From assembly GCA_013204185.1 (NCBI GenBank), contig JABMOI010000061.1:1-44402 (forward strand): a DNA stretch of 44,402 nucleotides. Reading direction: 5' to 3'. The stretch's first letter is position 1, and each line of letters opens with the position of its first letter. Shown here piece by piece: positions 1 through 11,202 of this stretch. The translations under genes were made by a program, and so were the position numbers. Below the pieces are notes generated by a model. That model saw only the letters and a list, made by a program, of their open reading frames with translations. It searched no databases and was not told the DNA's origin. Source of the stretch: a bacterium (GTDB taxonomy: Bacteria > Bacteroidota > Rhodothermia > Rhodothermales > UBA10348).

Positions 1-460
1 ATACAGAAGCGCCTTCCTGAATGAGGTTTCTAGCCAAACGAAGCGAAGTGTCGTAAGCGATTTCATCTTCCGGAAGCAGCTTACCTTCAAATTCGCCGAT
101 TGTCCCAGGATCCGGACCGCCGTGCCCTCCTACAATGTAGTAGACATGGCCTTCAAGCCGATCTGTCAATACTGGAACTCGTTCGTACGTCGAACCGAAA
201 ATAGGGTAGACTTTTGAAGTAGACGCTACCTTGTAGGTGCGTCCTACTAAAAGGACATCTTTTCCGCCTAGGGCCCGCTCATTCATTGATTTAAATTCTG
301 AAACAGCAGACGGCGTAGGTGCGATACCGTTTTGCCGAAGCAAACTATAGATCCCGTCTCCTTCCCTCGCAGTTACCGTAACATGTTCCTGCGCAACAGA
401 TTGCGAGGAAATAGCGATACTAAAAATGAGCAGAACAAGGAAAATATAGAGCGTTTTCAT
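1..460 (-). CDS. N-acetylmuramoyl-L-alanine amidase with N-terminal LysM-like region (3' end outside window)
   Basis: Only the first 153 codons lie in the window. The product starts with a signal peptide (hydrophobic residues 4-19, then SVAQ). A LysM-like segment follows at about residues 26-80 (TVTAREGDGIYSLLRQ...GRTYKV), and then the beginning of an Amidase_3 zinc hydrolase domain with GGHGGPDPG, whose His113 is the expected first zinc ligand. The segment LLPEDEIAYDTSLRLARNL matches the part of the fold that carries the next acidic ligand. Such enzymes cut the bond between MurNAc and the stem peptide in the periplasm. The start is the ATG before the signal peptide. The gene is divergent from the CHAT gene, sharing a 180-base upstream region. 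An EnvC-like protein, the usual activator of this amidase class, is encoded at 15645-16835. Whether the two pair is inference. Confidence 0.88.
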   Translation of the reverse strand, partial: MKTLYIFLVLLIFSIAISSQSVAQEHVTVTAREGDGIYSLLRQNGIAPTPSAVSEFKSMNERALGGKDVLLVGRTYKVASTSKVYPIFGSTYERVPVLTDRLEGHVYYIVGGHGGPDPGTIGEFEGKLLPEDEIAYDTSLRLARNLIQEGASV

Positions 461-640
461 GTTTCGGTCGGTTCCAAATATTAAGTCTCAATATAGGTTT
501 TATCGACGAGTTCGCGAGGTACTTAACAGATTGGGCCCTATATCGTCGTAAATAAAATGGAACAGCAATTGTAGGATGGGATGAAAATCTGCTTACCTCC
601 TTTGTATACTGCGTTTACCCTACCTCGCCCTGCCAACATC

Positions 641-3600
641 ATGAAGAACAAACTATTTGCTTGCCTCCTCGGGCTTGCAGTGTGCCTCCCAATTGGATTG
701 GTCTTCGGACAAGAATCCAATACGACCGAATTGGTTCCCACTGAGCGGCGCCTGATGATGTATCGAGTGCGCGGTGTCTACCCAGGCGAGCAAGGTATTC
801 TTGCCTACATCCTCGAGTCCTCAAAAGACGGCCTTTTTGATGGCTCGACTGGGGTTGTTAGATCAGTATTCAACAATGGCGGGCGGGAAGGGTCTGCAGC
901 CGACGAACTCGGAAGAGCGCAGGCTTTCGAAGTCACTGACTCGCTTTCATGGATTGCGGTAGTCCTAACAGATTCTTCCACTACAGATGGCTATTTGTAC
1001 GAAAATGACGTCGTTGAGCTGGCAACCGATATCCCAATCTTAGACTACCGAAGCGTGTTTTTTGATTTCGTCCGAAACTCAGTAGAGTTTTATGACAATT
1101 TCGACCAGCCCATTTTCAATCGAGGCCAAATTCTTCAATCCGATAGCCCTGAGCTCGAAATTGAATTGGAAACCGTGATGGCTGAGCAAGTGCGTGAGAC
1201 GGGCGCCGACATTCGTCCCCAGATCCCGGACAATCCTCAATGGGATCTATTGATTGAAGGGGGCAGATTTGCAGGGATGAAGTTGGTAGATGCCTTGGAG
1301 TCTACTACGTACGAAAACATTCACGCTTTCCTTGGTTTTGTTACGTCTTACCCTGGAAAATACTTGGGTGGGACGTGGAAGATCAACGAAACGTATGCAA
1401 CCTGGCTCATTAATGCGGCTCCCCCAGGGCAAGTGGAACTGCGCGACATGCTGTTGGCTGCGATGGATACGCCTGCATTTGACTCCCTCCTAGCTGAATA
1501 CAGCGATGAACTAACAGACGGTATTTTTACTTCGAACTGGAATAACCAAGCTGAAGCCTTGGGGGATGAAAACAAGCTTGAAGAAGCCATTGCGCTAAGC
1601 GACGTCGTGGCGCTGGTTGCGTCTCACCTTGGGGACAACAACATGTACGGATATATGCTCTTCTCTCGGGCAGATATTGCCGCTTCCGCGGAAGAACTGG
1701 ATACAGCTGTCAATCTATACCAAAAAGCAATCCAAGCATTCGAAGAAACGAATGACATCGCGGGAAAAGGAATGGCGGTTAACAACCTTGGAAACAAGCT
1801 CAATGACTTGGATCGATACGCCGAAGCAGACTCGCTTTTCAATGAAGCAATCTCACTAAAACTGCGCCTGATGCAGGAGGATACAGATAATAATTTACGT
1901 GCCAGTCTCGCCTCTTCATCCTATGGGAAAGGGACAAGTCTGTTGAATTTGGGTCAGTTAGAGGACGCGATTGCATCGTTTCAAACGGCCGATTCGCTCT
2001 ACGTCTTAGAAGGATCGCTCTCTAGCCAACGAAGTCACACGTACACGCTGAATCAAATTGGCAAAGCCTTCCTCAAGTCCGACAAGTACGACAAAGCCAT
2101 TGAGCAGTACCGACTTTCTTTTGATGCCTCCCAAGCCATGGGCGACGACGAGGGGAAAGCCGATGCGCTCGACGAAATGGGATATGCTCATTCCGTTCAG
2201 GGGAAGGATCAAGATGCTCTTGACGCATTCGAGCGGGCATACGATTTGCATGTTCTATCCGGTAATTTAAAAGATGCTGGCTATTCAAAGTCGCAATCTG
2301 GGCAGTCTCTTTGGAGGCTAAAACGATTCGACGAAGCCATCGTGGCTCATCACGCCGCTATCGCGATCCGAGAGCAAGCTGGTTTCGTGTCTGGGCAAGC
2401 GTATTCTTGGCTTAAACTGGGCGACCTGTACAAGGAAGCAGGAGACCCTCTGAACGCTATCTCCGCCTTCGATACAGCCTCCAGCCTGTACGACCAGGTC
2501 GGAAATCGATCGGGCGCTGCCGATGTCTTGGAGACGCTCGGGGATATGTATATCAGTGTCGAAGACTATGCTAAGGCTGCTCAGACTCATCTGAAGGCGC
2601 TTGAGATTCGGCAAGAGCTTTTACTCGCTTTTGAAACGGCCACCAGTTTAAACGATGTCGCCGGAGCGTATTTCAGCGACCGCAAGTTTGATGAGGCCAA
2701 AAAGTACTATGAGCAAAGCGCGGAACTACGCCGCGAATTACGTGACTATTCAGGCCTAATCAAAGCGCTTGCCAACCTCGGAAACATCTCCCACTTTCAC
2801 GACCGAGATTACGAAAAGGCTCAGTCTTTATATGCAGAAGCCATCGATCTTGCCAAGCTTCAAGAAAGCAGTTACGACTTGGCTTATTGCTACAGAGGTT
2901 TAGGCAATATTGAGGAGGATACCGGAAACTCAGTCGCTGCCTTAGAACACTACACTGAGGCATTAAACCTCTTTAGCGATACAGATGACCTCGTTAACAC
3001 CCACCTCCGAAGAGGCTCGGTTTTTCTCGTTCTCGGGCGTTTTGACGAATCTCGTTCAGAATACGAGGCCGCTAAAACATTGGCTGAAGAAGCGAATAGC
3101 CGGTTGGATGTTGCGAGCGCCTTGAATTCGCTCGGAGGTTTAGAAGTCACCATCGGGCAGCCAACCAAAGCACTTCAACTCGGAATGCAAAGCCTGAGGA
3201 TTGCTGAAGATGTTTCAAACCCTTGGGGTATGGCGTCGGCCAATGTGATCATTGGTAATGCCTACAACGTCATGGGCACCAATCAATTAGCCGTAACGCA
3301 CTACAGCATCGCAGACAGCTTGTGGGCTAGCACGGACAGCGATCTGGCACGGGCAACGCCCATCAACAACACGGGTACGATTTACTACCATCAAGGCGAC
3401 TATGCAGGATCTCTGCCTTTCTTCGAAGAAGCTTATCGAATCCAAAAGGAGGCCAAAATCGAAGACAACTTTACTGCCATTCTTTTAGGAAACATTGGCG
3501 CCTCCTACATGAAAATGGGTCAGTTTGAGCTGGGCGATAAATGGCTATTGGATGGCCAAGCGTTGTCAGATAAAATTGGGGTCGAACCGAGCCGTTCAAG

Positions 3601-5425
3601 TATGCGCGTGCTACTAGGCGAGTCTTTGTTTAGACAACAAAAGCCTGAACAAGCACTTGAAATGCTACTTTCATCCAAGGAAATCGCCCAGAGAATTGGC
3701 GATCCCGGAAATTTGGCCTCGGCCGAATTGTGGCTTGGCAAACTGTATGACTCGATGGGGTCGTATGAGGACGCCATTGCTTCGCTAAACGAAAGCGCTC
3801 GCATCTCAAGAGAGGTTGCGGATACGCGTACCCTTTGGCAAACGCTGGATGCGCTCGGAAACGTGTATCAGCACCTGGGGCAAAAAGAAGAGGCTATTCA
3901 AAGCTTTACCCAGTCAACGATCACGATCGAACAGCTATCTGGGAGGCTGGCCTTTGGGGACAGTGCGAAGGAGTTGTATTCCAAGTCCGACGGCCGCAGC
4001 GAAGTCTACGAAAAGCTGATTCGATTGCTCGTAGAAGAAGGTAAGATTGAATTGGCCTTGTCCTATATCGAACGCAGCAACAATGAGGCGTTAAGGAAAA
4101 GCTTGGCTTCGCTTCAAATTGAATTTGCCGATCCAGAAAAAACCACCGCGTTGCAACAAGAGCGGGAGCAAAAGGCGGAGCTTGAGGCCATCGACAAACA
4201 GATTTCGGTTCAGAAGTCTAAGTCCTCTCAAGACAGGCAAGCAGACCTCATTGAAAGCCTCGAGCGCAAGCGGAATATCGCCGAACAGGATTATGTTCGA
4301 TTTGTGAACCAGACCATTCGCTCGTTTCCCGAGCTTGCCGTGCATCTTAGCGATAGCGTTAATCCAAAGGACCTATCTAAAGTCAAAGGCAACATTCCTG
4401 AAAACACAGCCGTCGTGGCCTATTTGGTAGGCAATTCTGGTACGTTCATCTTTGTAGCCAACACAGATACTGTCATTGCCGTTGCCGTGGATATCGTTGC
4501 AAGCGATGTAAACTTGTTGGTAAACGAAGTTCATTCCGGACTCAAGGCGCCTGGCAGTGGATTGACTCGGAAAGCGGGCTCGGCGGCTGGCCGGCGAGAC
4601 CCCAAGATTGATATTCAAGCCGCGCTTACCGACCTCTACCGGCTTCTCGTTGAACCCATCGAAGATGCCATCGCAGGAAAGGAAATGATTGCGGTCATAC
4701 CGAGCGGTTCGCTTCACAAACTGCCGTTTCAAGTGCTTTCAGATCCGGAAAATGGCAAAAAGGCTCTCGTTGATGAGCACACCATCTATTACACCAGCAA
4801 CCTGGGCATTTTTTCGAACGAAAACATCAAGCAAGAACTACGCATTGTGGCTTTTGGGAATGCCGATGAGTCGCTCGAATGGTCGGAACGTGAAGTAACC
4901 GAAATTGCCGACATCAAACCAGACACGCAGGTTTTCTTAAGGGAAGAAGCGACTGAAAGCCGCGTAAAGAACGTTTCCACTGATTTTAACGTCCTCCATT
5001 TGGCTACACACGGAACGCTCGATTACAACGATTTTGAGAATTCATTCCTTACTTTGGCCAAAGGCGATTCCAATTCGGAGGATGGTCACCTGACGATCGC
5101 CGAAATTTGGAGTATTGTAGGTCTAGACTCCTATCGCCTCGTTACACTGTCCGCCTGCGAAACAGCCGTCAACGACGATATATCAAACGGATGGCCTATT
5201 AGCCCTGCCAATGCCTTTTTGGAACACGTTCCTAGCGTTATTGCATCGTTGTGGGAAGTCGACGACGTGGCAACATCTATCCTAATGCAGCGATTCTATC
5301 AGAACCTTGAAACGATGGGAACGGCGAAAGCTTTGCAATTGGCACAGCTTTCGCTCTCTTCTGAGGAGTCCTACTCAGATCCTTTCTACTGGGCCCCTTT
5401 TGTGGTTATGGGAGATTGGAGATAA
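641..5425 (+). CDS. Secreted TPR-CHAT protein (caspase-HetF-family protease)
   Basis: The product has 1594 residues when started at the ATG that opens a clean signal peptide (MKNKLFACLLG...GLVFGQ). An in-frame ATG 60 bases upstream would only add a polar leader. After export the order is: about 300 residues of unrecognised sequence, roughly 19 consecutive TPR units (about residues 335-1120), a charged coiled-coil-like stretch (about 1170-1225), and a C-terminal CHAT domain. The CHAT catalytic pair is visible as HLATHG (His1457) and LSACET (Cys1506), followed by the family hallmark VPSVIASLWEVDD. CHAT domains are caspase-fold cysteine peptidases. TPRs usually sense a partner and gate the protease. 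It is the first gene of a three-gene run, ending 16 bases before the metacaspase start. The exported location and very long TPR array are notable. The substrate is unknown. Confidence 0.9.
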   Translation: MKNKLFACLLGLAVCLPIGLVFGQESNTTELVPTERRLMMYRVRGVYPGEQGILAYILESSKDGLFDGSTGVVRSVFNNGGREGSAADELGRAQAFEVTDSLSWIAVVLTDSSTTDGYLYENDVVELATDIPILDYRSVFFDFVRNSVEFYDNFDQPIFNRGQILQSDSPELEIELETVMAEQVRETGADIRPQIPDNPQWDLLIEGGRFAGMKLVDALESTTYENIHAFLGFVTSYPGKYLGGTWKINETYATWLINAAPPGQVELRDMLLAAMDTPAFDSLLAEYSDELTDGIFTSNWNNQAEALGDENKLEEAIALSDVVALVASHLGDNNMYGYMLFSRADIAASAEELDTAVNLYQKAIQAFEETNDIAGKGMAVNNLGNKLNDLDRYAEADSLFNEAISLKLRLMQEDTDNNLRASLASSSYGKGTSLLNLGQLEDAIASFQTADSLYVLEGSLSSQRSHTYTLNQIGKAFLKSDKYDKAIEQYRLSFDASQAMGDDEGKADALDEMGYAHSVQGKDQDALDAFERAYDLHVLSGNLKDAGYSKSQSGQSLWRLKRFDEAIVAHHAAIAIREQAGFVSGQAYSWLKLGDLYKEAGDPLNAISAFDTASSLYDQVGNRSGAADVLETLGDMYISVEDYAKAAQTHLKALEIRQELLLAFETATSLNDVAGAYFSDRKFDEAKKYYEQSAELRRELRDYSGLIKALANLGNISHFHDRDYEKAQSLYAEAIDLAKLQESSYDLAYCYRGLGNIEEDTGNSVAALEHYTEALNLFSDTDDLVNTHLRRGSVFLVLGRFDESRSEYEAAKTLAEEANSRLDVASALNSLGGLEVTIGQPTKALQLGMQSLRIAEDVSNPWGMASANVIIGNAYNVMGTNQLAVTHYSIADSLWASTDSDLARATPINNTGTIYYHQGDYAGSLPFFEEAYRIQKEAKIEDNFTAILLGNIGASYMKMGQFELGDKWLLDGQALSDKIGVEPSRSSMRVLLGESLFRQQKPEQALEMLLSSKEIAQRIGDPGNLASAELWLGKLYDSMGSYEDAIASLNESARISREVADTRTLWQTLDALGNVYQHLGQKEEAIQSFTQSTITIEQLSGRLAFGDSAKELYSKSDGRSEVYEKLIRLLVEEGKIELALSYIERSNNEALRKSLASLQIEFADPEKTTALQQEREQKAELEAIDKQISVQKSKSSQDRQADLIESLERKRNIAEQDYVRFVNQTIRSFPELAVHLSDSVNPKDLSKVKGNIPENTAVVAYLVGNSGTFIFVANTDTVIAVAVDIVASDVNLLVNEVHSGLKAPGSGLTRKAGSAAGRRDPKIDIQAALTDLYRLLVEPIEDAIAGKEMIAVIPSGSLHKLPFQVLSDPENGKKALVDEHTIYYTSNLGIFSNENIKQELRIVAFGNADESLEWSEREVTEIADIKPDTQVFLREEATESRVKNVSTDFNVLHLATHGTLDYNDFENSFLTLAKGDSNSEDGHLTIAEIWSIVGLDSYRLVTLSACETAVNDDISNGWPISPANAFLEHVPSVIASLWEVDDVATSILMQRFYQNLETMGTAKALQLAQLSLSSEESYSDPFYWAPFVVMGDWR

Positions 5426-5441
5426 CCTGCAATTGAAATTC

Positions 5442-7673
5442 ATGTCCAGAATACTGGTCTTACTTATCGTATTTGGTGTCCTATTTACACCTCACGAGGG
5501 ACACGCTCAGAAAAAAAGAGCGCTGTTAGTCGGGATTAACGACTATACGCCTGCTGCATCCTCTGAAAACTTCGCGCTCAGAAAGTGGAAAAACTTAGAG
5601 GGCGCCGTGAACGACGTTGAGGCCATTTCAGCTATTTTGCAGACGAGGTTAGGTTTTGATAGTATAGAACTGCTTCGCAATCAAGACGCGACAAGATCAG
5701 CCATCTTCTCTTCTATCGAACGTTTAGCTGCGGAGTCACAGCCCGGCGATGTGGTCCTGTTCTACTACGCAGGCCACGGGTCACAAATGAAAAACACGGC
5801 GAGTCGGGAAGCAGATGGCTTAGACGAAACCATCGTCCCTTACGACGTTACGAGTGGCGCACCTGACATTCGCGACAAGGAGCTACGAGACGCCTTTAAT
5901 GCAATTCTTGATCGGGGTGCCTTGGTGACTCTGATCTTTGACAGCTGCCACAGCGGCTCGATTACCCGAGGAATTCCCGGAGGACAGACTCGTTACCTAG
6001 CTCCGAGCCCGCTTGTAGTCTCGGACGATAGCAATCCTCCGCGGCCTGAAGATCGCGGCGCACTCGTTTTGTCTGCCGCTCAGGACGATGAACTTGCCAG
6101 TGAACTGCTCGACGCAGATGGAAAACACAGAGGGGCGTTTAGTTGGGCGCTTGGACAGGCCTTGCTTTCAGGACAAGGAAGCGCGTCGGCCAATTCAGTT
6201 TTTCTCCAGTTGCGTGCCCTGATGAAATCCAAGGGCATGAAGCAAGAGCCCGTAATTGTTGGAAATGAAGACAGGATGAGTCAACCTCTATTCGGGGGTG
6301 CTTCTTCAGAATCCAATCCACATCAGGTTTTGGTAGCATCTATTGACGATAAAGACATCTTTTTGCAAGGCGGTCTTGCAACCGGAATACGCGAAGGCAC
6401 CGAATTGATATCAGATGCTGGCGCGCGGTACGTTGTAGAACAAAATCTTGGAATGTCTCAGTCAATCGCGGTGGCCCTGGAAGGCGCGCCCATGCCGACC
6501 GCCGGAGAGGCCCTGACCATCGACAAGTTTGTGCCCTCTGCCTCTTCGCCCTTACGAGTCCACGTGCCTCCGGCAACGTTGGATTATGCAACATTAGAAG
6601 CATTAGCAACAGACTGGGACTCGTTGAACCCCATTCTAGATCCAACCGAACAGGTTCCGAATCATATCCTGTATTTCGATACCGTGTGGCACTTGCTCAC
6701 CTCTTCAGGCGAAGAAGTTGATCTTGGACCAAGCCCTTCGGCCAAGAAGGTCAAGGCGGCATTGGTTGAGCCAGCAGATGGTTCTTCTGTAGTTTTGTTT
6801 ATTTCATATCCTCCGTTTGACTCGTTCGGCGACCGCTTACAAGAGGATTTGGCGACGGCTGGTAGAGAAACGGCTCTCATCGAATCCTTTTCTGATGCAG
6901 AATACCTGCTAGCGGGTATTTGGAGCGGCGGCGAATTCAAGTATGCTTGGATACTGAGGGAGTCTACTCAGGCGGAATCCAACTCCCCTGCACCGCCCCG
7001 AACAGATTGGAGACTAGTGACTTTAAGCCGTTTGATTTCAGCCAGTTTGTTAACAACCGATCTTGGTAAGCTAGATGTAATCTGGAGTTGGATCAACTTG
7101 CAAAGTCCCCCAGGGGACAAGGCCTTCCCTTATGAAATTGCAGGATTTAAAAATACTAAAACAGGCGAAATGCGCGTTCAAGGTGATTCTTTGACTTTGG
7201 GAGAACAATACAACCTGGTTCTAAAAACGACCTCCAGTCGGATTCAGGATGCTCAAATGAATGCCGTAATTACAAATGTTGGCAAGCGATACCTATACGT
7301 ATTCGCTCTCGATCGAGATGGCAACGGCACGCTTTTGTATCCGACAGCTCAGGATGGAAATGTTGAAAATGACATCAACTTTTTCACCAGTCTTCCTTTA
7401 GAGATGACCATTCCATCTCAAGGAGCCTTATTTAATGTTACAGCCCCCGTTGGAGTAGATTCGTTCTTTCTCCTCTCGAGCGCTGAAGCACTGCCTCAGC
7501 CTGATATTCTAACTTTTTCGGGTGTTCGCACCCGTTCAACTCCTGACGGTGAACAAACGGACCTCTCCAAGCTCTTGTTTGGGCTTGGGGGCAGCACGAG
7601 AAGCATTAGACAACCCGTGCCGCTGAACTGGTCTTTGGAAAAAATCACCGTCAGAAGCATTGATAATCCCTAA
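5442..7673 (+). CDS. Secreted metacaspase-like C14 peptidase with DUF4384-like C-terminus
   Basis: The product has 743 residues. The ATG is chosen because it opens a signal peptide (MSRILVLLIVFGVLF...GHAQ) directly after the stop of the CHAT gene. A TTG nine bases upstream is a possible alternative. A caspase p20 domain covers about residues 24-290: KRALLVGINDY, the catalytic His112 in YYAGHGS and the catalytic Cys169 in FDSCHSG, with the acidic DET/DIRDKEL surroundings usual in type I metacaspases. The middle (about 300-560) is not recognised. The last 170 residues contain a DUF4384-like beta segment (GDSLTLGEQYNLVL, LYVFALDRDGNGTLLYP) often attached to bacterial caspases. Metacaspases cut after Arg or Lys and often need calcium. 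Both caspase-clan proteases here are exported and adjacent, so sequential activation is possible but is inference. Confidence 0.9.
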   Translation: MSRILVLLIVFGVLFTPHEGHAQKKRALLVGINDYTPAASSENFALRKWKNLEGAVNDVEAISAILQTRLGFDSIELLRNQDATRSAIFSSIERLAAESQPGDVVLFYYAGHGSQMKNTASREADGLDETIVPYDVTSGAPDIRDKELRDAFNAILDRGALVTLIFDSCHSGSITRGIPGGQTRYLAPSPLVVSDDSNPPRPEDRGALVLSAAQDDELASELLDADGKHRGAFSWALGQALLSGQGSASANSVFLQLRALMKSKGMKQEPVIVGNEDRMSQPLFGGASSESNPHQVLVASIDDKDIFLQGGLATGIREGTELISDAGARYVVEQNLGMSQSIAVALEGAPMPTAGEALTIDKFVPSASSPLRVHVPPATLDYATLEALATDWDSLNPILDPTEQVPNHILYFDTVWHLLTSSGEEVDLGPSPSAKKVKAALVEPADGSSVVLFISYPPFDSFGDRLQEDLATAGRETALIESFSDAEYLLAGIWSGGEFKYAWILRESTQAESNSPAPPRTDWRLVTLSRLISASLLTTDLGKLDVIWSWINLQSPPGDKAFPYEIAGFKNTKTGEMRVQGDSLTLGEQYNLVLKTTSSRIQDAQMNAVITNVGKRYLYVFALDRDGNGTLLYPTAQDGNVENDINFFTSLPLEMTIPSQGALFNVTAPVGVDSFFLLSSAEALPQPDILTFSGVRTRSTPDGEQTDLSKLLFGLGGSTRSIRQPVPLNWSLEKITVRSIDNP

Positions 7674-7720
7674 TACAACCACCTACTTTCTGTTTTATAC
7701 TGAATCATCATCGAAAAACA

Positions 7721-9736
7721 ATGAACATTAAACAACGAATGGGCTCATTCATCGCCCTGCTGGTGCTTTTAGTTCTTCCACAGAATGTGGTAGCACAAGC
7801 GCCTTCTACAACGTCCGTAAAAACGTACTGTGATAGCTCAATTTCAGCGTCGGACTGTCAGATGGCAGAACGGGTCGCGAACAAGCTGGCTTCCGTGATC
7901 ACGCTCGAGCATTCGCTTCATACCTGGCCGCCAGACTTATACATTCACGACCAGAAGGACGAAAACGGAAATCCGATGCTCAACGCATTCGCACATGCTT
8001 GTGGTGGCGATATCGATGAAGGCATGCCGCATGACTGCACGGCGCCTGAAGGCTCTACGAAGCCTCATGTTCACTTCACTAAGAAGATATTAGATGATGT
8101 GGTTCAGGGAGACGAGAGTCGGTTGGCATTGATTATGGGCCATGAAATGGGTCATATAACGTCAGGCCACACCACTCCTTATGCATACCGTTTGATGGCA
8201 GAGTCTGAAGTTGGTTTTTACGCGTTCGGAAGGCAGCAAGAAATTATCTCTGACATTCGTGGGACTCAGTACGGATTGGCCGCAGGTTATAGCTTGGAAA
8301 AAATGCTAAATGCATTTTATAAGTTTATTGACCTCGATTTGAGCTACTCATCTTTCGAAGGTCTTGGCTATTCGCATCCTTCGTGGGAAGAACGCCTTAC
8401 CTTCATTGATGAGGACAGAGTGGGTCTGTGGCGGTCAATGATGGCCTTCAAAACAGGCGTCTCTATGCTGGCTAGCGAGCAGTATGCTGTTGCTACCAAT
8501 CTATTTCGAAGCGTTGTAGCTCAGTTCCCAGACAGCTATGAGGCACAAGCCAACTTGGGATACGCTCAGCTCATGGACTACCTTGACCAACTTGAGCCAG
8601 CCGATATCCAGGCGTTTGGCGTTGGCCAGATTGTGGTCGGAGCGTTCACTAGACGTCCTGAGTCTATGGAGCCAGCTATGCGTGGGATTAACACAGGGCT
8701 GTGGTTCCAGGCTACAACTTCGCTACAATCGGCACTTCGTTTGAATCCCTCCATGGCTGAAGCCAAAGCCAATCTTGGTATTGCATACCTAGTGCAGCCT
8801 AACGGTGGCGACAAGGCACAAGCCAAGCAGTATTTGCTGGAAGCGGTAGCTTTGGCTCAAAACGATCCGTCCATGGATAGCCGGGCGAAAGCAGCCATAT
8901 TCATTAATGCGGGTGTCGCGGAAATGGCTGAGGGCCTACTGCAGGATTCCTTTAATCATATGATTGCGGCAGAAACGGAACTCAATATGGTGTCCGGTTT
9001 CGCAGGAAGTCCAGATCGCGTAGTTCGGGGCGAACTAGAAGCTGGCCTCTACTACAACACGGCGCTGATCCTTTCAAAAGTCAACAACGCTGAAGCTCAA
9101 ACGGGCGCTGCAGATTATTTCCATGCCTACCTCTCTGGTCAAAGCCCCTCCTCTAACTGGTGGCAGCTTGCTTACAATCAGTATGTTCTTGCATGTAAAG
9201 CCATTGGCCGCACGCCAAACACTGTTTCAAGTTACCAGAAAAGTCATGTGACGACGTTCCGCACCTTGAGTGGAATCACCTTCGAAAACGGTACACAGGT
9301 AACGCTGGGACAACCGGTGGATGAGTTTATCAATGACATGACACGTCGTGGCGGTGACTCTGCTGCGTATTTGGATTCGCCGGTAATCGAAAATACCGAT
9401 TTACATGACTACTCTTTCTACCTCGCAGGTACGTCTATTTTTGCAACCCAGGAAGTATTGAGTGTCCAGATGTATGGCACTTCTTCTCCTAAACTGACTG
9501 TTCAAGAATCTGGTCTTGGTGCTAAATCCTATACGTTGAGTGTTGGAATGCCAATTGCAGACTTGGACCGCATTTTGGGTTCCAATTGGGAAAAAAGGCT
9601 GGTAGTTGACTTCTCCGCTGGATACCGATTCTATCGTGACCTTGGATTGGCCGTCCGCATTCAAGATGGCCTTGTGGCTGAATTGGTCGTGACTCAGATT
9701 CCTTACCAGCAGTTCTGGGAGCCAGAAGTTGAGTAA
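7721..9736 (+). CDS. Secreted M48-family metallopeptidase with TPRs
   Basis: The product has 671 residues and starts with a signal peptide (hydrophobic 8-22, NVVAQ). The zinc site is intact: HEMGH (His141, Glu142, His145) and the third ligand Glu174 in QQEIISD, the M48 pattern. A Cys/His-rich loop lies just upstream (CGGD...HDC, about 94-106). TPR-like helices occupy about 245-500, as in the periplasmic BepA group. The last 170 residues are not helical repeats. They contain two copies of a short pattern (LGQPVDEFI and VGMPIADLDRILG) reminiscent of BamE/SmpA-type folds, which is only a resemblance. It lies 47 bases behind the caspase gene and ahead of a strong terminator, so it probably closes the same operon. 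BepA-like proteins clear misassembled outer-membrane proteins. The role here is unproven. Confidence 0.87.
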   Translation: MNIKQRMGSFIALLVLLVLPQNVVAQAPSTTSVKTYCDSSISASDCQMAERVANKLASVITLEHSLHTWPPDLYIHDQKDENGNPMLNAFAHACGGDIDEGMPHDCTAPEGSTKPHVHFTKKILDDVVQGDESRLALIMGHEMGHITSGHTTPYAYRLMAESEVGFYAFGRQQEIISDIRGTQYGLAAGYSLEKMLNAFYKFIDLDLSYSSFEGLGYSHPSWEERLTFIDEDRVGLWRSMMAFKTGVSMLASEQYAVATNLFRSVVAQFPDSYEAQANLGYAQLMDYLDQLEPADIQAFGVGQIVVGAFTRRPESMEPAMRGINTGLWFQATTSLQSALRLNPSMAEAKANLGIAYLVQPNGGDKAQAKQYLLEAVALAQNDPSMDSRAKAAIFINAGVAEMAEGLLQDSFNHMIAAETELNMVSGFAGSPDRVVRGELEAGLYYNTALILSKVNNAEAQTGAADYFHAYLSGQSPSSNWWQLAYNQYVLACKAIGRTPNTVSSYQKSHVTTFRTLSGITFENGTQVTLGQPVDEFINDMTRRGGDSAAYLDSPVIENTDLHDYSFYLAGTSIFATQEVLSVQMYGTSSPKLTVQESGLGAKSYTLSVGMPIADLDRILGSNWEKRLVVDFSAGYRFYRDLGLAVRIQDGLVAELVVTQIPYQQFWEPEVE

Positions 9737-9765: not shown

Positions 9766-9806
9766 AGCGGGGCGGGCCATTACATGGCCCGCCCCGCTCT
9801 TTTTTA
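9766..9806 (+). terminator. Strong intrinsic terminator after the protease operon, probably bidirectional
   Basis: A perfect 15-bp stem (arms 9766-9780 and 9784-9798, GC-rich, with a 3-base TAC loop) is followed directly by CTTTTTT. It lies between the convergent M48 and M28 genes. Read on the other strand, the stem is followed by TTTCTTAT, so it can serve both genes. Confidence 0.93.
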
Positions 9807-9825: not shown

Positions 9826-11202
9826 CTATCGTGGCAGACGCTGATCCATATCGGCAACAACGAATGCCATAACTCCCATGGTAGCCACAGATTTGGCCAC
9901 TTCTACTGGATCCAACTTATCTACGTAATCCGCATTGGTATGGTGGTACCAGAAATACTTCGTTCCATCGACGTTTAGTCCCATTCCAGGAACCCCCTCC
10001 TGCATGATAGGGCCAATATCTGCGCCCCCTCCACCTTTTGTGATTACGCCAGAGTCAATGCTTTTCAACAGGCCGCCAACTTGAGTTATGATGTCAAAAG
10101 CCGCCTCACTTCCTGAAAATCCAAATCCAATGGGAGCAAACACGCCACCGTCCGACTCCATAGCCAATATGTGATTATCCAATTCATCGATGTGGGCATC
10201 TTTGTACGCATTTCCGCCGCGCATACCATTCTCTTCGTTGGTCCACATAACCACACGAATCGTTCTTTTGGGACGCAAACCTAGTTTTTTCATCAAACGA
10301 AGCGCCTCCCAAGCTGCAACACAGCCTCCAGCATCGTCCATTGCGCCGGTTCCCACATCCCACGAATCAATGTGACCTCCAAAAACGATGACTTCGTCTG
10401 GAAATTCACTTCCTACTAATTCCCCAACGACATTTCTCGACTCAGAGTCGGGTAGCCACACATCATCCAACTTGAGCGTCACGGAAATTGTGTGACCCCG
10501 ATCTTGCATGCGCTGCATCATGAGCGCGTCTTCAACTGTAACGGCCGCGTGCGGAATTTTAGGGACTCCGTCTGCATAGCTAGAGTTTCCCGTGTGAGGG
10601 GTGTACAACGAGTTGGGAGTGACTGAGCGGACCAGGCTTGCAATTGCACCCGCTTCTGCAGCTTTGATTGCTCCGTTTCCCCGATAACTAACCGTGGCAC
10701 CATACGATGTAAATGGAACGTTCCATAGCACGATTTTTCCCTTCGCTTTAGCCTTATTCGCCTCTAGGTCATCATAGGAGCTTACGACAAACACCTCCCC
10801 AGTTACCCCGTTAGGACCCGTTCCTACGGTCCCTCCTAAACCCAAAATCTGCAATTTTCTGTGGTGAGGAGCGAGTAACACGAGCGACTCCTCCCCGCGA
10901 ACCCAATGAGGAACCATTACTTTTTCGCCTCGAACGTTTTCGAGGCCGTCTGCCTTCATCGCCTCCAAAATCCAATCGATGGCCGTTTCTAGATTGTCTG
11001 AACCTGAAAAACGTGGTCCAAACGTATCTGTCAGATACGCCAATCTGTTCCAAGCCGCGCTGTCTGCCAGCGCAGCGTCAATGATTTGATCCGCTGCAGA
11101 CTGATACTGGGCGGCAATATCCTGTCCACTGTCTGCTTGTTTGCAAAGACCGGGATGGGAAAACAGAACGGCAACTAGTGCCAAGGTAAAAAGACGTTTC
11201 AT
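9826..11202 (-). CDS. Secreted M28-family metallopeptidase (carboxypeptidase Q-like)
   Basis: The product has 458 residues with a signal peptide (MKRLFTLALVAVLFSHPGLC). A protease-associated (PA) insert is seen at about 130-240 (VTGEVFVVSSYDDLEANKA, GKIVLWN). The co-catalytic zinc site is complete: His277 in GGHIDSWD, bridging Asp289 in MDDAGG, catalytic Glu323 and ligand Glu324 in TNEENG, Asp351 in MESDGG, and a late His in FWYHHTNADYVDK. The architecture is that of plasma glutamate carboxypeptidase/carboxypeptidase Q, which removes residues from small peptides. It is transcribed toward the secreted protease operon and could degrade its peptide products, but no sequence link shows that. The ATG is preceded by AAGGAT, a plausible ribosome site. 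Confidence 0.9.
   Translation of the reverse strand: MKRLFTLALVAVLFSHPGLCKQADSGQDIAAQYQSAADQIIDAALADSAAWNRLAYLTDTFGPRFSGSDNLETAIDWILEAMKADGLENVRGEKVMVPHWVRGEESLVLLAPHHRKLQILGLGGTVGTGPNGVTGEVFVVSSYDDLEANKAKAKGKIVLWNVPFTSYGATVSYRGNGAIKAAEAGAIASLVRSVTPNSLYTPHTGNSSYADGVPKIPHAAVTVEDALMMQRMQDRGHTISVTLKLDDVWLPDSESRNVVGELVGSEFPDEVIVFGGHIDSWDVGTGAMDDAGGCVAAWEALRLMKKLGLRPKRTIRVVMWTNEENGMRGGNAYKDAHIDELDNHILAMESDGGVFAPIGFGFSGSEAAFDIITQVGGLLKSIDSGVITKGGGGADIGPIMQEGVPGMGLNVDGTKYFWYHHTNADYVDKLDPVEVAKSVATMGVMAFVVADMDQRLPR

Follow-up and report, generated by a model that had tools for sequence, protein, structure and literature searches.

A TPR-CHAT, metacaspase and M48-TPR operon in Rhodothermales, a possible module for regulated proteolysis in the cell envelope

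Introduction

Bacterial CHAT and caspase proteases have mostly been studied as cytoplasmic immune effectors. What is the role of such proteases when both carry signal sequences and are encoded beside a zinc metallopeptidase? This question is raised by a stretch of 44,402 nucleotides (contig JABMOI010000061.1, hereafter the window), which is contig 29 of 271 in the 3.44 Mb metagenome-assembled genome (MAG) of a Rhodothermales bacterium, the nearest named relatives of which are also Rhodothermales MAGs. Near its left end, three adjacent genes encode a TPR-CHAT protein, a metacaspase and an M48-TPR metallopeptidase. We estimate a probability of about 50% that they form an accessory operon through which proteolysis is regulated in the cell envelope. 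No publication naming the CHAT domain, M48 and caspase together was found in our literature search, outside of which most subscription journals lay.

Results

The three genes are located on the same strand (+) in the order TPR-CHAT (641..5425, 1594 residues), metacaspase (5442..7673, 743 residues) and M48-TPR (7721..9736, 671 residues), with gaps of 16 and 47 bases. Both this arrangement and the domain identities had been proposed in an original prediction made without database searches; the open reading frame (ORF) coordinates confirm the former and Pfam matches, all above their cut-offs, the latter. Alignment of the catalytic dyads for TPR-CHAT and the metacaspase, and motif alignment and a structural model for M48-TPR, complete these assignments. 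The operon ends at an intrinsic terminator (9766..9798, + strand) made of a 15-pair stem with 12 G-C pairs, a loop of 3 and a T-run. It is the strongest among 14 sites in the first 14 kb, in agreement with the single strong terminator initially described and, since it lies between convergent genes, it may serve both sides. Upstream, the intergenic region 461..640 (+), divergent with an amidase gene, is presumed to contain the promoter; no prominent sigma-70-type promoter was seen (8 found versus 14.4 expected), a result that says little for this lineage.

As had been predicted, each protein starts with a signal-like sequence (residues 1-23 in TPR-CHAT, 1-22 in the metacaspase and 1-25 in M48-TPR). 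Hydrophobic stretches span residues 5-23, 4-22 and 7-25, respectively, and plausible signal-peptidase sites, read by eye, are VFG-Q, GHA-Q and VVA-Q. A longer in-frame start of the CHAT gene is available at 581; the signal sequence starts the protein only from 641. Signal-like N-termini are retained in all three proteins in two other genomes of the class, G013 and G072. A domain scan found no type IX secretion system (T9SS) sorting domain in the three proteins. An outer-surface location is therefore unsupported and the periplasm is the simpler reading, and it is there that we infer all three proteins to be located.

In TPR-CHAT, the signal sequence is followed by an N-terminal domain of unknown fold (about 25-320), a TPR array (about 340-1110) and the CHAT domain (1327-1592). 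Pfam CHAT is matched with E 4.5e-55 and 187.6 bits against a cut-off of 24, together with 11 TPR_12 stretches. The dyad His1457/Cys1506, located where originally predicted, is invariant across three orthologues and, with the above-cut-off match, places the protein among the CHAT peptidases. The family scan gave TPR-type families and CHAT alone, with no SAVED domain on the protein, and no PDB chain matched the CHAT region in phmmer at E 0.1. A model of the N-terminal domain, built from three sequences, reached a predicted local distance difference test score (pLDDT) of 56.

The metacaspase contains a p20-like domain (24-273) with His112, Asp167 and Cys169, which are invariant in an alignment of five homologues, and a weak DUF4384 match at 606-681. 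Peptidase_C14 is matched with E 1.3e-28 and 100.7 bits (cut-off 21.4), and the p20 domain, the His/Cys dyad and the DSC motif together identify the protein as a metacaspase of family C14; the closest solved chains are those of eukaryotic metacaspases (7qp0, E 2e-16). Because of its Asp-Ser-Cys catalytic motif, it probably cuts after Arg/Lys, in keeping with the basic-residue specificity of metacaspases described in PMC6426788; by family analogy, it may also depend on calcium.

The third protein comprises an M48 domain with HExxH at 141-145, Glu174 and an HPx4R plug at 219-225, followed by TPR helices (about 230-510) and a C-terminal alpha/beta domain (about 515-660). Peptidase_M48 is matched with E 2.3e-10 and 41 bits (cut-off 20.3), in addition to TPR. 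The HEMGH sequence noted earlier starts at 141, and H141, E142, H145, E174, H219, P220 and R225 are invariant in nine relatives. A model with a pLDDT of 77.5 consists of the M48 domain, a solenoid of TPR helices and, in the C-terminal domain, what look like two alpha/beta units; by visual impression only, these may resemble BamE/BLIP-like folds. HExxH, the third-ligand Glu and the HPx4R motif, an active-site plug as defined for BepA (PMC7950410), assign the protein to peptidase family M48, and an exported M48 domain followed by TPR repeats is the BepA-type architecture. Compared with solved structures, the M48 profile matched 3c37 (M48) with E 3.5e-12 and BepA 6ait with E 4.8e-7; Foldseek and VIA-align with the whole model gave TPR proteins only and no BepA among the matches listed, the M48 and C-terminal domains being barely probed in this comparison. 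In all three families, the catalytic residues singled out by the original prediction are intact and conserved in homologues, which we count in favour of envelope proteolysis.

How are these genes distributed? The genomes searched were 245 others of the class (246 with the window genome) and a closer set of 100 relatives. Among the latter, M48-TPR is intact in G013, G072 and G060 only, and a class-wide search with a nine-sequence profile returned the same three plus truncated copies. Intact CHAT orthologues are present only in G013 and G072 among the 245 genomes, orthologues of the CHAT N-terminal domain only in these two and, truncated, in G023, and metacaspase relatives at E < 1e-60 in G013, G072, G069 and G012. 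CHAT orthologues of the class are confined to genomes with an M48 gene or an M48 remnant. G013, which belongs to another genus, has the full trio in the same order and strand with the same amidase and M28 borders, over an interval of 9450 bases versus 9368 here; its longest metacaspase reading frame overlaps the CHAT stop (L031 10086/10089). Both trios are full length despite 51-63% identity. In G072, from a different family, CHAT and M48 are adjacent and an orthologous metacaspase (48-50% identical) is on a separate contig. In a hypergeometric test, uncorrected for kinship, CHAT co-occurs with the metacaspase at a probability of about 2e-4 and with M48 at one of 1e-4, the two positive genomes being in different families. 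That a second genus has the trio at this site, and that all three families co-occur in both other intact-CHAT genomes, points to a linkage beyond chance. The original reading of the three genes as one exported unit is supported, but adjacency of the metacaspase does not extend to G072. As a side observation, G069 contains a cluster of three caspase-domain genes (L041:6181-15311), one of them 42% identical to the window metacaspase.

The site itself is bordered on the left by the start of an N-acetylmuramoyl-L-alanine amidase gene (2..460, − strand, cut by the contig end) and on the right by an exported M28 peptidase gene (9826..11202, − strand), which is found in 26 of 27 family genomes. Both borders are conserved and lie outside the module. 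In four sister genomes, only a 3’ part of the M48 gene is left between them, encoding about 440 residues with a TAG (G025), about 285 (G024), about 109 with stops (G001) and about 55 (G004). In a fifth, G023 (L122:47-2152), CHAT residues 1-654 run in frame into about the last 22 residues of M48; this fusion is the scar of a large internal deletion that removed the remainder of CHAT, the entire metacaspase and nearly all of M48. In G005, G003, G017, G026 and G009, the amidase gene is beside M28 with no detectable remnant of the trio between. Remnants thus occur in at least five sister genomes, each truncated differently, and the site is empty in five. The breakpoints are different in every case, from which it follows that at least two genera had the trio ancestrally and that losses have been numerous. 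The two trio owners are the largest genomes of their genera in the set (3.4-3.5 Mb versus 1.9-2.9 Mb), which fits loss through streamlining, genome completeness varying among the sampled MAGs. We conclude that this is an old accessory operon at one fixed site, repeatedly lost and probably dispensable for growth.

The G+C content of the operon equals that of its flanks (49-50% here, about 57% in G013), and no relatives of the operon were found in plasmids, phages or viral contigs. On these two results, we reject a mobile-element origin and take the operon to be part of the resident chromosome. The genes scanned further right are housekeeping genes (an rpiB-like isomerase, a lipoamide-dehydrogenase-type oxidoreductase, Met- and His-tRNA synthetases, dprA, obg, lgt and others) and PADLOC gave no match among ten neighbour genes. 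The surroundings are not a defence island.

In a wider scan of the genome collection, the M48 family turned up in MAGs with the labels Planctomycetota, Bacillota, Ignavibacteria and Acidobacteria; a phylum-wide search with the M48 profile added nothing to the genomes already identified, save a second locus in G543 and one weak match in G729. In an Ignavibacteria MAG (L049), the M48 gene has a TPR-CHAT gene 69 bases upstream on the same strand, and in a Planctomycetota MAG (L047) it has a convergent one at a distance of about 1 kb. In a Rhodothermales MAG (L046), two small genes separate M48 from a downstream TPR gene that is truncated at the end of the contig. No metacaspase is beside the M48 gene at L049, L047 or L046. 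The metacaspase is an optional member of the module.

The Ignavibacteria MAG, RIFOXYC2_FULL_35_21, has two M48 loci (L049:3880-11117 and L115:4098-7353), both preceded by an extracytoplasmic function (ECF) sigma factor (Pfam Sigma70_r2, 9e-11 and 4.3e-10) and by a second gene, the product of which has one central transmembrane helix, the topology of an anti-sigma factor, and probably is one. The sigma pair is followed by TPR-CHAT, M48-TPR and a small exported protein at one locus, and by M48-TPR alone at the other. ECF sigma/anti-sigma genes ahead of CHAT-M48 point to an envelope signal.

Genes for small exported, weakly YbjN-like proteins lie directly downstream of M48-TPR at four loci, each in a MAG of a different classification (L046:12017-12508, L047:11801-12520, L048:1911-2474 and L049:10611-11117). 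They form one family (linking pairs E 1e-12 to 8e-8), the YbjN match of one member being weak (0.0011) and below cut-off. The partner set of M48 therefore varies: the small YbjN-like protein, TPR-CHAT and, in one lineage, the metacaspase. Two candidates were rejected. A 680-residue ORF upstream of the L047 M48 gene gave no blastp match to the small partners at 0.05, and it was the downstream 240-residue ORF that matched. An apparent CHAT-M48 adjacency in G544, an Ignavibacteriaceae MAG, provides no evidence, as the 30-mer shared by the ends of L050 and L103 is a Nextera adapter; its presence at these contig ends (L050:5918-5955, and L103) is an assembly contaminant in a public MAG.

CHAT-caspase pairs were also encountered elsewhere. 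In a Planctomycetota MAG (L101:866-10600), a Ser/Thr kinase gene is followed by genes for an exported 1816-residue TPR-CHAT protein and a metacaspase, with overlapping reading frames. In other Rhodothermia (L106:4381-9750, L107:4901-13786, L108:224-11241 and L109:2171-12287), a caspase of ~1160 residues is encoded with one or more CHAT proteins; these clusters are of the cytoplasmic type, without signal sequences and with a second caspase in two of them, and may represent an undescribed or EACC1-like conflict system. CHAT and caspase pair repeatedly on both sides of the membrane.

Discussion

How might such an operon work? All three proteins would be exported to the periplasm. M48-TPR would act there as a BepA-like zinc protease, its HPx4R plug keeping the active site shut until, by analogy with BepA, docking of a client by the TPR and C-terminal domains opens it. 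TPR-CHAT would be the sensor and regulator: its TPR array and N-terminal domain may bind a misfolded or foreign envelope protein, and binding would free the CHAT cysteine protease to cut envelope clients or to activate its operon partners. The metacaspase would be an optional third protease broadening the output. The protease activities, the sensor role of CHAT and cleavage of one protein by another are all predicted from sequence. Direct activation of one operon protease by another is possible though unlikely. We find doubtful a further version, a periplasmic cascade based on the caspase fold in which the exported TPR-CHAT senses an envelope intruder or misfolded protein and proteolytically activates the metacaspase and/or M48. 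Such a cascade would parallel, outside the cytoplasm, the CHAT cascade of CRISPR, and relatives would couple CHAT-M48 to ECF sigma/anti-sigma. The original prediction had suggested an envelope-stress or outer-surface cascade; its envelope setting is supported by the Ignavibacteria sigma/anti-sigma genes, the outer surface is not, and the cascade remains conjectural.

Several observations weaken the original interpretation. The complete trio is rare, being present in 2 of 246 genomes, and metacaspase relatives in G069 and G012 are without CHAT or M48 partners. Export, which had been thought unusual for CHAT and caspase proteases, is not: of 19 other CHAT proteins sampled from the class, about 16 have a signal-like N-terminus, and many prokaryotic metacaspases have been suspected since 2012 to be probably extracellular or exported (PMC3501461). 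Other observations weigh against regulated envelope proteolysis as the function of this operon. Intact relatives are few (four in the class), the Ignavibacteria and Planctomycetota CHAT-M48 cases are one locus each, and no sigma/anti-sigma genes adjoin the Rhodothermales operons. The commonest neighbour of M48 elsewhere, the YbjN-like protein, is missing in the window lineage, and the M48 role may thus not depend on CHAT or caspase. Finally, substrate, trigger and activity are all deduced, not observed.

The alternative that survives best, although we think it unlikely, is that three exported proteases are merely co-transcribed, without regulatory ties, for instance to scavenge protein or for general turnover in the periplasm. 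The exported M28 aminopeptidase gene adjoining the operon would suit such a set, but M28 and the amidase are core genes and the trio is rare, hence they are not one unit. A loose association is also suggested by the metacaspase, which lacks both partners in G069 and G012 and is encoded on a different contig from them in G072, and by how common exported TPR-CHAT proteins are in the class; yet CHAT and M48 are linked in other phyla as well, and orthologues of the metacaspase accompany CHAT at the kinship-uncorrected probability given above. TPR-CHAT and metacaspase architectures are regulatory, not digestive, in known cases, which also counts against mere co-transcription.

An extracytoplasmic defence or cell-death module, is in our view improbable. 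In such a module, TPR-CHAT would detect an entering phage, a toxin delivered by contact or a predator in the periplasm, and would then set the metacaspase and M48 free so that the cell is killed or walled off. It is mainly from conflict systems that CHAT and caspase proteins are known (PMC7159879, PMC9729208), and both the cytoplasmic caspase-CHAT pairs of other Rhodothermia and the exported pair behind a Ser/Thr kinase in Planctomycetota speak for a defence role, as do patchy presence and repeated loss, which are usual in defence systems. However, the surroundings are core housekeeping genes without a PADLOC match, no mobile-element relatives were found, and the operon has stayed at one chromosomal site in two genera without moving. 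It also encodes no membrane pore, gasdermin or nuclease effector, and no gasdermin gene was found among the neighbours identified by Pfam and PADLOC. That the operon is decaying in the window genome as well, a relic simply not yet deleted, as the remnants and empty sites of sister genomes might suggest, is very improbable given three frames open over 9 kb, intact catalytic and plug residues, and full length in both owners at a divergence that requires long purifying selection.

We retain regulated proteolysis in the envelope as the preferred reading. The operon, its repeated deletion at one site and its sigma-linked relative provide a testable case for CHAT and caspase proteases acting outside the cytoplasm with a BepA-like protease.

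How does the operon compare with known systems? EACC1-associated caspases are defined by the NCBIfam NF047832 cut-off and an EACC1 neighbour; the window metacaspase shares with them a weak caspase-domain match, far under the cut-off (50.3 bits versus 140), and is encoded beside CHAT and M48. In type III-B CRISPR, Steens et al. (2024) reportedly found a caspase-like protease to be the target of SAVED-CHAT. That SAVED-CHAT works through a cascade of proteolytic activity is stated in PMC11229360, which cites that study, and the idea of a CHAT-driven cascade is thus not new. The window operon shares the CHAT protease, its cascade being only proposed; SAVED-CHAT is cytoplasmic and triggered by cyclic oligoadenylate via SAVED, whereas the window proteins are exported, with no SAVED or cas among those scanned. 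The TPR-CHAT protein of Craspase (Csx29, type III-E CRISPR) likewise has a CHAT His/Cys protease after its TPR repeats (PMC9729208, PMC10028731), but the window protein has a signal peptide, an additional N-terminal domain and a TPR array that is far longer. No gRAMP/Cas7-11 or other cas protein was found among nearly all window ORFs of at least 150 residues, CRISPR arrays and the rest of the genome being outside this search. With prokaryotic metacaspases and orthocaspases, among which exported members are suspected (PMC3501461), the window protein shares the C14 match and the intact His/Cys dyad; it differs in its long C-terminal region, with the weak DUF4384 match, and in its CHAT and M48 operon partners. 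The closest parallel for the third protein is BepA (YfgC), the periplasmic M48-TPR protease of Escherichia coli, with which it shares export, HExxH, the third-ligand Glu, the HPx4R plug and the TPR repeats that follow. It differs from BepA in its extra C-terminal domain, low identity and CHAT and metacaspase gene neighbours, and the likeness is one of sequence and motifs, a BepA-like role in BAM/LptD assembly being at most conjectural. The trio thus combines known kinds of protein, a BepA-like M48, a TPR-CHAT and a metacaspase, of which only the CHAT-M48 core is seen in other phyla.

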